Origin: Streptomyces hiroshimensis
GTDB lineage: Bacteria > Actinomycetota > Actinomycetes > Streptomycetales > Streptomycetaceae
Direction of reading: 5' to 3'
Assembly (NCBI RefSeq): GCF_014650335.1
Contig: NZ_BMUT01000001.1
Location: 1-64,000 of the forward strand
DNA length: 64,000 nucleotides
The translations under genes were made by a program, and so were the position numbers. The notes beneath the pieces were generated by a model. The model did not search any database, was not told the DNA's origin, and was given only the letters and a program-made list of their open reading frames with translations. Shown one piece after another: positions 29,301 to 32,208 of the stretch (positions within the stretch are counted from its first letter, which is position 1; every line of letters starts with the position of its first letter).

Positions 29301-29332
29301 TATTGCGTCCCGCCGTTATTGCGTCCCGCCGT
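29301..29332. repeat. Perfect 16-bp tandem duplication at the rhodanese stop codon
   Basis: TATTGCGTCCCGCCGT occurs twice head to tail (29301-29316 and 29317-29332). Read on the minus strand, the inner copy encodes the last residues of the rhodanese protein. The stop lies at the junction, and the protein end would be the same with one copy. Confidence 0.85.
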
Positions 29333-29699
29333 CCACCGGCAGGCCCGCCGCGCGCCAGGCCTGGAAACCGCCCGCCAGGTCCGTGGCGCGGTGCAGGCCC
29401 AGCAGGCGCAGGGAGGCTGCCGCCAGGCTGGAGGCGTAGCCCTCGTTACAGATCACGACCACTTTGAGGTCGTGCCCGGTCGCCTCGGCCGCGCGGTGCT
29501 CGCACTGCGGGTCGAGCCGCCATTCCAGTTCGTTGCGCTCCACCACCAGTGCCCCGGGGATGGTCCCGTCGCGCTCCCGCAGCGCCGCATAGCGGATGTC
29601 CACCAGCAGCCCGCCCTCGGCCCGGGCCGCCGCGGCCTCGGCCGGGCCGAGCCGGTCCAGGCCCTCCCGGGCGGCCGCCAGGAGCTCCTCGACCCTCAC
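29316..29699 (-). CDS. Rhodanese-like sulfurtransferase
   Basis: The 127-residue single-domain rhodanese has the active-site Cys84 in VVICNEGYASS. DIRYAALRERDGTIPGALVVERNELEW and the C-terminal LAGGFQAWRAAGLPV are typical of the family. Rhodaneses move sulfane sulfur from thiosulfate or persulfides to acceptors. GTG 29699 overlaps the stop of the upstream cysteine dioxygenase gene (GTGA), with GGAGGAG five bases before it, so the two are translationally coupled. The pair suggests oxidation and disposal of cysteine sulfur. Confidence 0.88.
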   Translation of the reverse strand: MRVEELLAAAREGLDRLGPAEAAAARAEGGLLVDIRYAALRERDGTIPGALVVERNELEWRLDPQCEHRAAEATGHDLKVVVICNEGYASSLAAASLRLLGLHRATDLAGGFQAWRAAGLPVDGGTQ

Positions 29700-30250
29700 G
29701 CCCACTCCTCCGGCCACTCGACCTGCTCCAGCCGCAGCACCTGCCCGCTGCGGCTGTATCGCCTCATCAGCGGCAGCGGCGGATAGTACGCGTGCACGGA
29801 CACCGCGTGCTGCTCCGCCGAGGCGTTGAACACCTGGTGGACGTGATGGGCGCCGAAGGCCCGGCCCTGCCCCTCGGAGAGCTGCCGCCGGCGGTCGATG
29901 CCGTCGGCCAGTTCCAGGCTCCTCCAGCCGTCGGTGGGCATCCGGGCCGCGAGGGAATGCTCGGTCAGCACACCGCCGGCGGTGGCGAACGCGCCGTGCG
30001 AGCCGCCGTGGTCGTGCCAGCCGGTGCCGGTGCCGGGCGGCCAGCCGATCAGCCAGGCCTCGCTGTCACCCGGCCCGTTCAGCCGCATCCAGGTGCGGCC
30101 CCGGGGGTCCAGCGGGAGGGAGGAGACCAGTTGTGCGTCGGCGGCCGCGCGGTGGGCGAAGGCGAGCAGGTCGGCCTCGGAGGGCGCGCCGGGGGAGCCG
30201 GGGGAGACCGTGGAGGAGCCGGGCACGGGCGTGGGCAGGGGAAGGAACAC
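29696..30250 (-). CDS. Cysteine dioxygenase family protein
   Basis: The 184-residue cupin oxidises L-cysteine to cysteine sulfinate with non-haem iron. The metal histidines are visible in WHDHGGSHGAF and HHVHQVFN. The mammalian crosslinking Cys is replaced by Gly, as usual in bacteria. YYPPLPLMRRY near the C-terminus is a conserved substrate-site region. The GTG at 30250 has AGGA eight bases upstream, which favours it over longer readings of the frame. A leader peptide gene with Cys codons lies 84 bases upstream, suggesting cysteine-dependent control. Confidence 0.9.
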   Translation of the reverse strand: MFLPLPTPVPGSSTVSPGSPGAPSEADLLAFAHRAAADAQLVSSLPLDPRGRTWMRLNGPGDSEAWLIGWPPGTGTGWHDHGGSHGAFATAGGVLTEHSLAARMPTDGWRSLELADGIDRRRQLSEGQGRAFGAHHVHQVFNASAEQHAVSVHAYYPPLPLMRRYSRSGQVLRLEQVEWPEEWA

Positions 30251-30334
30251 GGGAACCGTCCTGAGTGATCGCGAAGGAGCGCGCGGCGGCCGGCGCACAG
30301 AGCGCACAGGCAGGCTGCGCGGAGGGAATGCGGA
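30251..30334 (-). promoter_or_regulatory. Possible attenuator between the Cys leader peptide and cysteine dioxygenase
   Basis: On the transcript, GCTGCG within the leader Cys codons (30360-30355) can pair with CGCAGC (30319-30314). The overlapping GCGCA (30320-30316) can instead pair with TGCGC (30306-30302), giving mutually exclusive hairpins. A GC-rich block (about 30300-30280) precedes the cysteine dioxygenase RBS. There is no U-tract, so if this is an attenuator it would act by Rho or by hiding the RBS. Pairings were found by eye. Confidence 0.4.
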
Positions 30335-30421
30335 TCAGCAGGACGGACGACAGACGCAGCCCGCGTAGCGGACGAGGTCCAGATGGACCCTCCGCCAGAA
30401 GTGCGCGCCAGTGTCAGTCAC
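30335..30421 (-). CDS. Cysteine-rich leader peptide upstream of cysteine dioxygenase
   Basis: A 28-codon frame starts at GTG 30421 and ends with TGA at 30335; it is too short for most gene finders. Its centre reads WRRVHLDLVRYAGCVC and it ends CRPSC, so three of the last eight residues are Cys. The segment resembles the H-x-DL-x-R leader peptides found before sulfur genes in actinobacteria. Internally, GGAGGG lies five bases before a CTG codon, so a shorter 15-residue form is possible. A six-codon ATG frame overlaps the GTG start (GTGA). The likely role is sensing charged tRNA-Cys, by analogy with Cys-responsive leader peptides described in mycobacteria. Confidence 0.68.
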   Translation of the reverse strand: MTDTGAHFWRRVHLDLVRYAGCVCRPSC

Positions 30422-30453
30422 GGTCCGTAGTCAACCATGGCGTTCGGTGCAGG

Positions 30454-32208
30454 TCAACGGTTGGCCGTGGCTTCGCTGGGGGCTTCCGACGGCGACTGTG
30501 CGCTCCCGGCGCCCGCGCCGTCCCCGGAGGCCGGGACCGCCGCGCTCGCCGCCGAGGCCCCGCCGGAGCCTGCCCGGCCCTCGTCCCCGGACCCCGCGCC
30601 ACCGGCCGCCCCGCCCCGTACGGCATTCGCGCACGCGTACAGCTCCGCAGGGCGCACTCCCGCGAGCGCCGCCACCAGGTGCCCGTCCGGGCGCACCACC
30701 AGCACCGTATGGGCCGGTGCGCCGGGGTACTCGTCGGTGACCAGCAGCTCGGCGGGCACGGGCAGGGCGCTGACGGCGGCCGCCAGCTGCGGCATGAGCC
30801 CGGCGTCCGCCCAGTGCCGCCGCTCCCACACACCGCTGCCCGGTGCCGTCAGGACCACCAGGAGGTCGCCGCCCAGCCGGTCCCGCAGCGGTACGAGGGT
30901 GCCGTCCGGTGCGGTCACCGTCACGTTCTCCGCCTGGGCTCCGAGCGGGGTGTCCACTGTGACGGACCCGGCGGGCGGTGCGGCCGGCGCCAGGGGCGTA
31001 CGGGTGTACAAGGGGGGCGTGCCGAGCTGCCCGCGCCCGAGGTGGCCGTCGGTGAGCAGCTCGTCGTGCCCGCGCAGGGCGCCCGGCACCAGCGTGCGGC
31101 GCACACTGCTCCACCCTCCCTCGCCGCGGACCGCCGGAAGCGCCCGGTCGGCGGCGCGGAGCCGGGCCCCGACCGCGCCGCGCCGCTCGGCCTGGTAGCT
31201 GTCGAGGAGGGTCTCCGAGGCGCCGTGGTGCCAGGCCAGAGCCAGCTTCCAGGCGAGGTTCCCGGCATCGCGCAGCCCCTCGTCGAGGCCCTGGGTGCCG
31301 AGCGCGCCCAGCAGGTGTGCGGCGTCCCCGGCGAGGAAGGCGCGGCCGGTGCGCATCCGGCGCGTGAGGCGGTGGTGCACGACGTGCACGCCGGTGTCCA
31401 GGAGCTCGTACGGCGGCACGTCGCCGCACCAGGTGGCCAGCGAGTCGCGCACCCGGGCCAGGAGGGCGTCGGGCGTGACGAGTTCACCGCCGGGCGGCAG
31501 CGGCCAGTCGAGCCGCCACACGCCGTCCGGCAGGGGACGGGCCGTCACCTCCCCGCCCCGTGCGGGCGACCGGTGCAGCACGGCTTCGCCGGGCCACGGA
31601 AGCTCGGCCCGGAGCGCGGCGACCGCGTACCGCTCGACGGCCGTGCGGCCCGGGAAGCGCGCGCCCAGCAGCTTGCGCACCGTCGACCGGGCGCCGTCGC
31701 ATCCGACGAGGTAACTGCCCCGCCAGGCGGAGCCTTTGTCGCCGCGGAGGTGGGCGGAGACCCCGAAGGCGTCCTGCCGCAGGTTCTCCAGGCGGCCCCC
31801 GCGGACGATCCGCACCTTCTCCTCGGCGGCGAGCGCGGCCTTCAGCTCCCGGGTCAGCGCGTGCTGCGGCAGGTGCAGCGGCGACGGACCCGCCGCCTCC
31901 GCCCCCTCGGCCGCGCTGGCCTCCGCGGCTTCCCCGGGGGGCGTGAACGACAGCCGGCCGACCACCGCGCGGCGGCGCATGGTGCGCCAGCCCGTCCAGC
32001 GGGTGCCGTCCTGCGTGGCGCATCCCAGGCGCTCCAGCGCGGCGGCGGTGTCCGGGGCGAGCACGACCGTCCGGGCCAGGCGCTCCTCGTCCGGCGTGGG
32101 GCCCTCCGAGGCCTCGTCGAGGAGGACGACGCGCACCTCGTGGCGGGCGAGGCGGAGGGCGAGCATGAGGCCGACCGGGCCGGCTCCGACGACGATCACC
32201 GGGTCCAC
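30454..32208 (-). CDS. FAD-dependent aromatic monooxygenase (PHBH/TetX-like)
   Basis: The 584-residue group A flavoprotein hydroxylase has the Rossmann fingerprint VVGAGPVGLMLALRLARHEV at the N-terminus. LVGCDGARSTVRKLLG and AFLAGDAAHLLGALGTQG (the GD motif) follow. The C-terminal about 170 residues form the thioredoxin-like domain of phenol-hydroxylase relatives, followed by a disordered Ala/Gly-rich tail. The usual HPPTGGQG stretch after the GD motif is altered, so the substrate is unclear. GTG 32208 has GGGAG seven bases upstream and gives the flavin fold at residue 3; the frame is open 42 codons further upstream without similarity. Confidence 0.85.
   Translation of the reverse strand: MDPVIVVGAGPVGLMLALRLARHEVRVVLLDEASEGPTPDEERLARTVVLAPDTAAALERLGCATQDGTRWTGWRTMRRRAVVGRLSFTPPGEAAEASAAEGAEAAGPSPLHLPQHALTRELKAALAAEEKVRIVRGGRLENLRQDAFGVSAHLRGDKGSAWRGSYLVGCDGARSTVRKLLGARFPGRTAVERYAVAALRAELPWPGEAVLHRSPARGGEVTARPLPDGVWRLDWPLPPGGELVTPDALLARVRDSLATWCGDVPPYELLDTGVHVVHHRLTRRMRTGRAFLAGDAAHLLGALGTQGLDEGLRDAGNLAWKLALAWHHGASETLLDSYQAERRGAVGARLRAADRALPAVRGEGGWSSVRRTLVPGALRGHDELLTDGHLGRGQLGTPPLYTRTPLAPAAPPAGSVTVDTPLGAQAENVTVTAPDGTLVPLRDRLGGDLLVVLTAPGSGVWERRHWADAGLMPQLAAAVSALPVPAELLVTDEYPGAPAHTVLVVRPDGHLVAALAGVRPAELYACANAVRGGAAGGAGSGDEGRAGSGGASAASAAVPASGDGAGAGSAQSPSEAPSEATANR

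Follow-up and report, generated by a model that had tools for sequence, protein, structure and literature searches.

A conserved leader peptide with an invariant UGU cysteine codon precedes a cysteine dioxygenase operon in Streptomyces and is a candidate cysteine-responsive attenuator

Upstream of a cysteine dioxygenase (CDO) gene of Streptomyces hiroshimensis we found a short open reading frame, conserved across the genus, which we favor with moderate confidence as a cysteine-responsive translational attenuator that is induced on cysteine shortage. Based on RNA folding, we propose the following mechanism. Left alone, the mRNA would fold in such a way that an anti-Shine-Dalgarno segment shuts the Shine-Dalgarno (SD) sequence of CDO. 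With Cys-tRNA in short supply, ribosomes would wait at an invariant UGU codon (codon 24), and their footprint at that position would cover codons 26-28 and prevent the anti-SD pairing. The freed SD would allow translation of CDO and of the coupled rhodanese gene. With cysteine plentiful, ribosomes would finish the leader and leave, and the hairpin would close. CDO would in this way belong to a set of genes that are induced when cysteine is short or thiols are oxidized, beside sulfite reductase, CysO-CysM and CysA2.

The window, that is the whole stretch of 64,000 nucleotides that was analyzed, carries the leader on its minus strand (30335..30421) as a frame of 28 codons that starts with GTG at 30421 and encodes MTDTGAHFWRRVHLDLVRYAGCVCRPSC before a TGA stop. 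Its C-terminus, CVCRPSC, places three Cys codons within the final eight, and 84 bases (30334..30251) separate its stop from the likely CDO start, GTG 30250. These coordinates confirm the frame, codons and distance reported in a preliminary description of this DNA that was made from its letters alone. The assignment is based on translation, orthologue alignment and a match to the NCBIfam model NF042934, 'putative leader peptide', at 32.3 bits (cut-off 27). The peptide is conserved across Streptomyces (130 of 150 genomes match at E <=1e-4), and together the two results place the leader beyond chance. Against the mycobacterial Ms5788A leader model, the final 15 residues give a weak match (20.2 bits, cut-off 45). 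Upstream of the frame, conserved columns among 124 loci outline a promoter-like sequence (30429..30457, minus strand) with a -35 element TTGACC (30457-30452) and a -10-like element TTGACT (30434-30429); examples from the -35 columns are T in 116/124 and C in 111/124 aligned loci. A scan for the strict sigma-70 consensus returned no site at this sequence. Since only 7 bases separate the -10-like element from the start codon and no SD was seen 5' of that start, the leader mRNA is probably leaderless. The codons for RRVHLDLVR form a hairpin of their own, GGCGGAGGGUCC-AUCU-GGACCUCGUCCGC (30368..30396, minus strand), which was returned as the RNAalifold consensus of 81 loci with 16 pairs, one of them changed on both sides. 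This hairpin is stable in Streptomyces CDO leaders, and locus L137 carries a compensatory synonymous change within it (AGG to AGA together with CTC to TTG). At Rfam gathering scores the only match in the window was a tRNA elsewhere.

The gene behind the leader (29696..30250, minus strand) encodes a type I cysteine dioxygenase (Pfam PF05995, CDO_I, E 5.5e-43). Its start was chosen from the SD-to-start spacing, which is 5-6 bases in 105 of 117 loci. A rhodanese-domain gene follows (29316..29699, minus strand; PF00581, E 1.6e-14), the start of which overlaps the CDO stop in the sequence GTGA (29699..29696), and the operon described initially is therefore borne out. Solved relatives of the CDO protein are all distant (best E 1.9e-11), which bears on the question of CDO versus mercaptopropionate dioxygenase. 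S. hiroshimensis also has a CDO paralogue (L364), and inspection by eye of its upstream stretch revealed no such leader.

Linkage between leader and CDO was counted only on the 109 loci fetched through the leader (L044-L152), because loci L014-L039 had been fetched through CDO. The search pattern located the leader in 107 of the 109, and in 104 of these a CDO lies within 1 kb downstream. Of the three exceptions, L070 and L076 run into a contig end or the limit of the fetched stretch, and L073 (genome G012) is without a CDO. The same genome holds a CDO fragment elsewhere (L037), in another frame and without a leader, and the split looks like an assembly break or a rearrangement. The 20 genomes in which the leader is missing were also searched for CDO: the closest match was 54% identical (G161) and one genome had none, versus 66-80% identity in 23 genomes of the same genus with a close CDO. 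This low identity suggests that the leader and this type of CDO are largely gained or lost together. At 80 named loci found with CDO, the leader is present in 77 and the exact string CAGGACGG lies within 300 bases in 72; of the three loci without a leader, L352 begins only 10 bases before the match. The alignments reported below cover 124 loci, leaving out L052, L058 and L067 (same genomes as L015, L020 and L033), L038 and L039 (another genus), L037, L078 and L084 (pattern not found) and L070, L073 and L076 (no CDO found). The stop codon is TGA in all 124 of these non-duplicate loci.

The Cys codons near the stop are strongly conserved. In the window, codons 21-24 read GGC TGC GTC TGT (30350..30361, minus strand), with Cys22 (TGC) at 30358-30356 and Cys24 (TGT) at 30352-30350. 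Codon 24 is UGU in 125 of 125 CDO leaders, codon 22 encodes Cys in 124 of 125 with Tyr as the sole replacement, and codon 28 encodes Cys in 111 of 124 loci; the residues are spaced, and a run of adjacent Cys codons is absent. The leader pattern itself required CxC, and the two loci that it missed were re-inspected: the leader at L078 (genome G095) belongs to a CDO found among the protein matches and has Tyr at codon 22 and UGU at codon 24, and the one at L084, with UGC, falls into another group of related leaders and is not a CDO leader. UGU is rare in the long open reading frames of the window (11 of 135 Cys codons), and it is the first Cys codon after the motif in 89 of 94 related leaders before non-CDO genes. 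Synonymous changes occur at other codons of the leader (Tyr TAT 69 and TAC 55, Arg25 CGC 68 and CGT 37, among 124 loci), so the sampling is deep enough for constraint to be seen, with the amino acids also kept. Rare codons are found elsewhere in CDO leaders as well (CAT in 108/124 and TAT in 69/124), which counts against a special role of UGU. In related non-CDO leaders the motif His is the common CAC in 82 of 90.

The preliminary description had drawn alternative hairpins from the Cys-codon segment, among them GGCUGCG (30361..30355) with CGCAGCC (30319..30313). Both segments are present in the window, yet only 2 of 112 orthologues keep the exact partner, the fold of the window itself has an expected pairing of 0.0 bp, and at least 4 bp form in 1 of 112 loci, and this hairpin was rejected. 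Another pairing is conserved instead. The anti-SD segment CCGUCCUG (30339..30346, minus strand), which spans codons 26-28 (Pro-Ser-Cys), is the exact complement of 30263..30256, and the SD of CDO, CAGGACGG, occupies these positions (30256..30263, minus strand). Of 124 loci, 117 keep this SD string unchanged, across a spacer from the leader stop that ranges from 44 to 256 bases. Among 112 folded loci, which were chosen for an exact AGGACGG SD, the expected pairing of anti-SD and SD has a median of 7.8 bp and reaches at least 5 bp in 102; five more loci were left out of this set for want of a start (L120, L152) or for a spacer above 130 bases (L046, L079, L098, L152). Just inside this helix the fold of L014 places a second one, UGAUC (30333..30337, including the stop codon) with GAUCA (30266..30270), both on the minus strand, and at least 3 bp are expected there in 105 of 112 folded loci.

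Several controls were applied to these helices. Random 45-nt stretches of the window gave an SD-covering match of at least 8 in 0.62% of cases. The mean pairing of 20 sampled CDO loci with their own partners exceeded that with the SDs (16/16) and with the leaders (16/16) of the other groups. Across 23 sequences from several genera, 83.8% of helix cells pair versus at most 46.2% in slid versions of the alignment. The seventh pair, the only one changed on both sides, is U-A in 14 of these sequences, C-G in 2 (in genus g18), U.G in 2 (in genus g21) and unpaired in 5. Locus L039, from another family, sets CCCGUCCG against CGGACGGG and is misplaced in this alignment. Covariation of the stems had been suggested initially as a check: the original stem is not kept and the SD helix is, but the covariation of the latter is weak, since 65 of 500 shuffles reached its score, and it is limited because the helix hardly varies. 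A swap test of the second helix was also weak, with 186 of 5000 permutations as good. RNAalifold on 81 loci returned the coding hairpin and missed the SD helix, probably owing to poor alignment of the spacer.

To model stalling, a 30-nt ribosome footprint was forced to be unpaired and the cost of opening the SD was computed for the 112 loci. This cost was 11.4 kcal/mol for the free mRNA, 9.2 with Cys22 in the A site, 6.1 with Cys24, 5.5 with Cys28 and 5.3 with the stop codon. Opening became easier by at least 3 kcal/mol in 31, 96, 98 and 98 of the 112 loci for Cys22, Cys24, Cys28 and the stop, respectively; with a shorter footprint, a stall at Cys22 freed the SD in 9 of 112 and a stall at Cys24 in 81 of 112. 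The change is smaller when measured as mean SD accessibility (0.04 free, 0.13 at Cys22 and 0.25 at Cys24), and by this measure a gain above 0.2 is seen in 4% of loci for Cys22 and in only 52% for Cys24. Exposure of CDO is thus predicted for a pause at UGU, but in most loci not for one at the first Cys codon. By folding, an SD-masking structure that a stalled ribosome would undo is predicted in Streptomyces and in some sister genera.

Outside Streptomyces, all 39 modeled loci have UGU as the second Cys codon. The leader accounts for a share of 0.84-1.00 of the SD pairing in genera g11, g13, g18 and g21 (one or a few loci each) and for a partial share of 0.43 in g5. Genera g12 (25 loci; Actinacidiphila, judging by identity with L361), g16 and g19 have the leader, but with a share of only 0.05-0.28, and stalling is of no help. 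This set leaves out L371 (no start found) and L389, L412 and nine g8 loci (no leader by the pattern). A looser pattern finds a leader in 7 of the 9 g8 loci, with a single Cys, encoded by UGU, at the place of codon 24; the g8 stretches inspected, which for L400 do not extend as far as the gene start, hold no GGACGG-type SD. The single-Cys leaders before CDO in this genus (L395-L403) end in GGCTAG, and in several, inverted repeats resembling GCTAGCCGA surround the stop codon. Since UGU is kept across genera and the SD pairing is not, the UGU codon seems to be ancestral, and masking of the SD seems to belong to Streptomyces and nearby genera.

The initial proposal that a Cys-codon leader controls CDO therefore stands in its conserved leader of the HxDLxR type and in a predicted mRNA structure that ribosomes would change, though not in the hairpins it named. 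It had further held that stalling at Cys codons alters the downstream fold so that CDO is made only when cysteine is plentiful. A change of fold is predicted by our model too, but the sign of control is probably the opposite, with CDO up on cysteine shortage: ribosomes short of Cys-tRNA would be delayed at all Cys codons, and at two of these three the model frees the SD, so induction by shortage is expected. The original sign, which we consider unlikely, requires that shortage stalls ribosomes at Cys22 with the hairpin shut and that CDO is made when ribosomes flow through codons 24-29. It suits a cysteine-consuming enzyme, and it survives because the modeled stall at Cys22, which precedes Cys24, leaves most SD sites shut, a point that counts against induction. 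It would hold only if Cys22 dominates, whereas the same shortage should also stall ribosomes at Cys24 (UGU) and Cys28, where either stall frees the SD in the model, and Cys22 is the dispensable codon (Tyr in L078, absent in g8). Induction of a cysteine-destroying enzyme by shortage is physiologically odd, and this counts against the attenuator that we favor. Under shortage, CDO may serve in sulfur salvage or act on another thiol.

The sign of control is also touched by published expression data. We take SCO5772 of S. coelicolor to be the orthologue of the CDO in the window, partly on the assumption that the gene order is recA-recX-rhodanese-CDO. The accessible text of one study labels SCO5772 a 'putative cysteine dioxygenase' (PMC3087709). 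According to the accessible part of another, 28 genes rose in wild type S. coelicolor after 2 h in 0.15 mM H2O2, among them SCO5772 (8.0-fold), SCO6094-SCO6102 (9- to 18-fold), SCO4164 (8.3-fold) and SCO2910-SCO2912 (3.4- to 8.5-fold); in the same text none of the 28 rose in the hbpS-senS-senR mutant, and its authors favor SenR (PMC4991794). Diamide is described, in the portion available of a third report, as inducing cysI, cysA and cysM with or without NdgR, which leaves room for a further regulator (PMC4340878). We infer that H2O2 or diamide lowers usable cysteine. The rise of SCO5772 alongside cysteine-biosynthesis genes, recorded as mRNA levels under H2O2, probably speaks for the shortage sign and against the original one. 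The dependence of these responses on HbpS-SenS-SenR, and their attribution to SenR, count against the attenuator that we favor. SCO1558-SCO1559 rise together with the cys genes in the accessible data (PMC4991794). In S. lividans the metL leader of metNIQ (SLIV_29928), listed as methionine-dependent in Table 4 of a survey available in part (PMC8079986), has three Cys in its final stretch, GARCMCRRMCAF, and could be a leader that senses cysteine.

Similar leaders also precede other genes. Among the matches listed, each of the 25 genomes has at least 3 to 13 NF042934 hits at E <=0.001. We read 113 such loci and assigned 95 to 16 target groups besides CDO, with labels and downstream starts taken from our own protein patterns and SD scores and not from a family search; the remainder are CDO leaders or lack a recognized target, start or group. 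The groups comprise sulfite reductase, CysO-CysM, CysA2, flavin-dependent monooxygenases, sulfatases, sulfonate or peptide transporters, a symporter and others; the leaders of the first three share an HxDLxR (or AxDLxR) ... UGU pattern with that of CDO. The genome of S. hiroshimensis itself has four more NF042934 leaders above the cut-off (L004, L005, L007 and L008), and the genes behind them are, by our own reading, a sulfite reductase, a flavin-reductase-like gene, a 2-oxoglutarate/Fe oxygenase-like gene and a thiosulfate sulfurtransferase. A general rule of SD masking across HxDLxR leaders found no support. Modeled stalling does not free the SD in most related groups, with some effect in the small groups ssuD, flavred, cysA2 and tcyP, and own-SD pairing over the set of 17 groups is not significant (permutation test, 0.063). 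SD masking cannot therefore be the common device of the family, and non-CDO leaders may work differently, perhaps through Rho.

Extended to the whole family, Rho-dependent attenuation would resemble tnaC, with a ribosome near the stop blocking a C-rich, G-poor loading site and SD masking as an extra. The 30 bases after the leader stop of CDO loci have suitable composition (C 0.48, G 0.20), and the mean G content is at most 0.30 in 16 of 17 groups versus 0.36 after 35 long open reading frames of the window, a control that consists of 3' flanks of genes and not of 5' leaders, and with several groups of only 1-3 loci. The known responses are at the mRNA level, a scan of 30200..30520 for intrinsic terminators (hairpin plus U-run) found none, and the accessible text of PMC1262725 proposes Rho for mycobacterial cys leaders. 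With the cysOM group showing no G depletion (0.34) and the control being of this kind, we judge this explanation decidedly unlikely. Plain translational coupling, in which translating the leader would expose the CDO site at an unvarying rate, with no signal residing in the Cys codons, would agree with the freeing of the SD by a ribosome at the stop codon, but it is highly improbable given the constancy of Cys24 and its rare UGU and the Cys pattern common to 16 groups of other, mostly sulfur, genes. A wider reading, possible but doubtful in our view, is that Streptomyces has a translation-based cysteine regulon with several leaders per genome. Its sensor would be a single rare, wobble-read UGU behind a conserved HxDLxR nascent peptide, where the peptide tunes the pause beyond the effect of a hungry codon alone. 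Such a regulon would act as the regulator of cys genes under thiol stress and would include CDO, which would act in sulfur salvage rather than in cysteine disposal.

Our analysis provides Streptomyces with a testable candidate cysteine-sensing leader and a model at the level of base pairs, and places CDO in one set with 16 other gene groups that, by our own labels, mostly concern sulfur supply. Should the shortage sign hold, the view of CDO as a cysteine disposal enzyme would need rethinking, and the leader would be a candidate for the further cys regulator left open in the accessible text of PMC4340878. The near-constant UGU offers a simple signature for finding more leaders.

In the open-access literature, with subscription papers mostly outside its scope, none of the titles and abstract openings listed concerned a leader before a bacterial CDO. 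Canestrari et al. reportedly described mycobacterial Cys attenuators in 2020, together with the idea of SD unmasking. NF042934, a cis_reg_atten model whose curated cut-off the CDO leader exceeds, names a peptide motif, and its description gives no mechanism. A survey of S. lividans presents, in its accessible part, eight leader peptides, none of them ascribed to cysteine (PMC8079986). A classical transcription attenuator would have a terminator hairpin with a U-run, unlike the region before CDO (30200..30520). Seliverstov et al. (2005), in the part accessible, found no conserved hairpin in the leaders of mycobacterial cys operons and suggested Rho (PMC1262725); the CDO leader resembles these in its Cys codons near the stop and in the absence of an intrinsic terminator, and differs in a predicted SD-masking hairpin with both arms conserved. 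A close likeness is to the polycysteine attenuators of mycobacteria, leaderless short frames in which, according to the accessible texts, a stalled ribosome unmasks a sequestered SD (PMC9094748, PMC13236596, PMC9031893). As there, a short frame with Cys codons precedes sulfur genes, and unmasking of the SD is what our model predicts. What distinguishes the CDO leader from these Cys attenuators is a target that oxidizes cysteine, a sensor codon fixed as the rare UGU, and Cys codons that are spaced (CxC...C) in place of a run.
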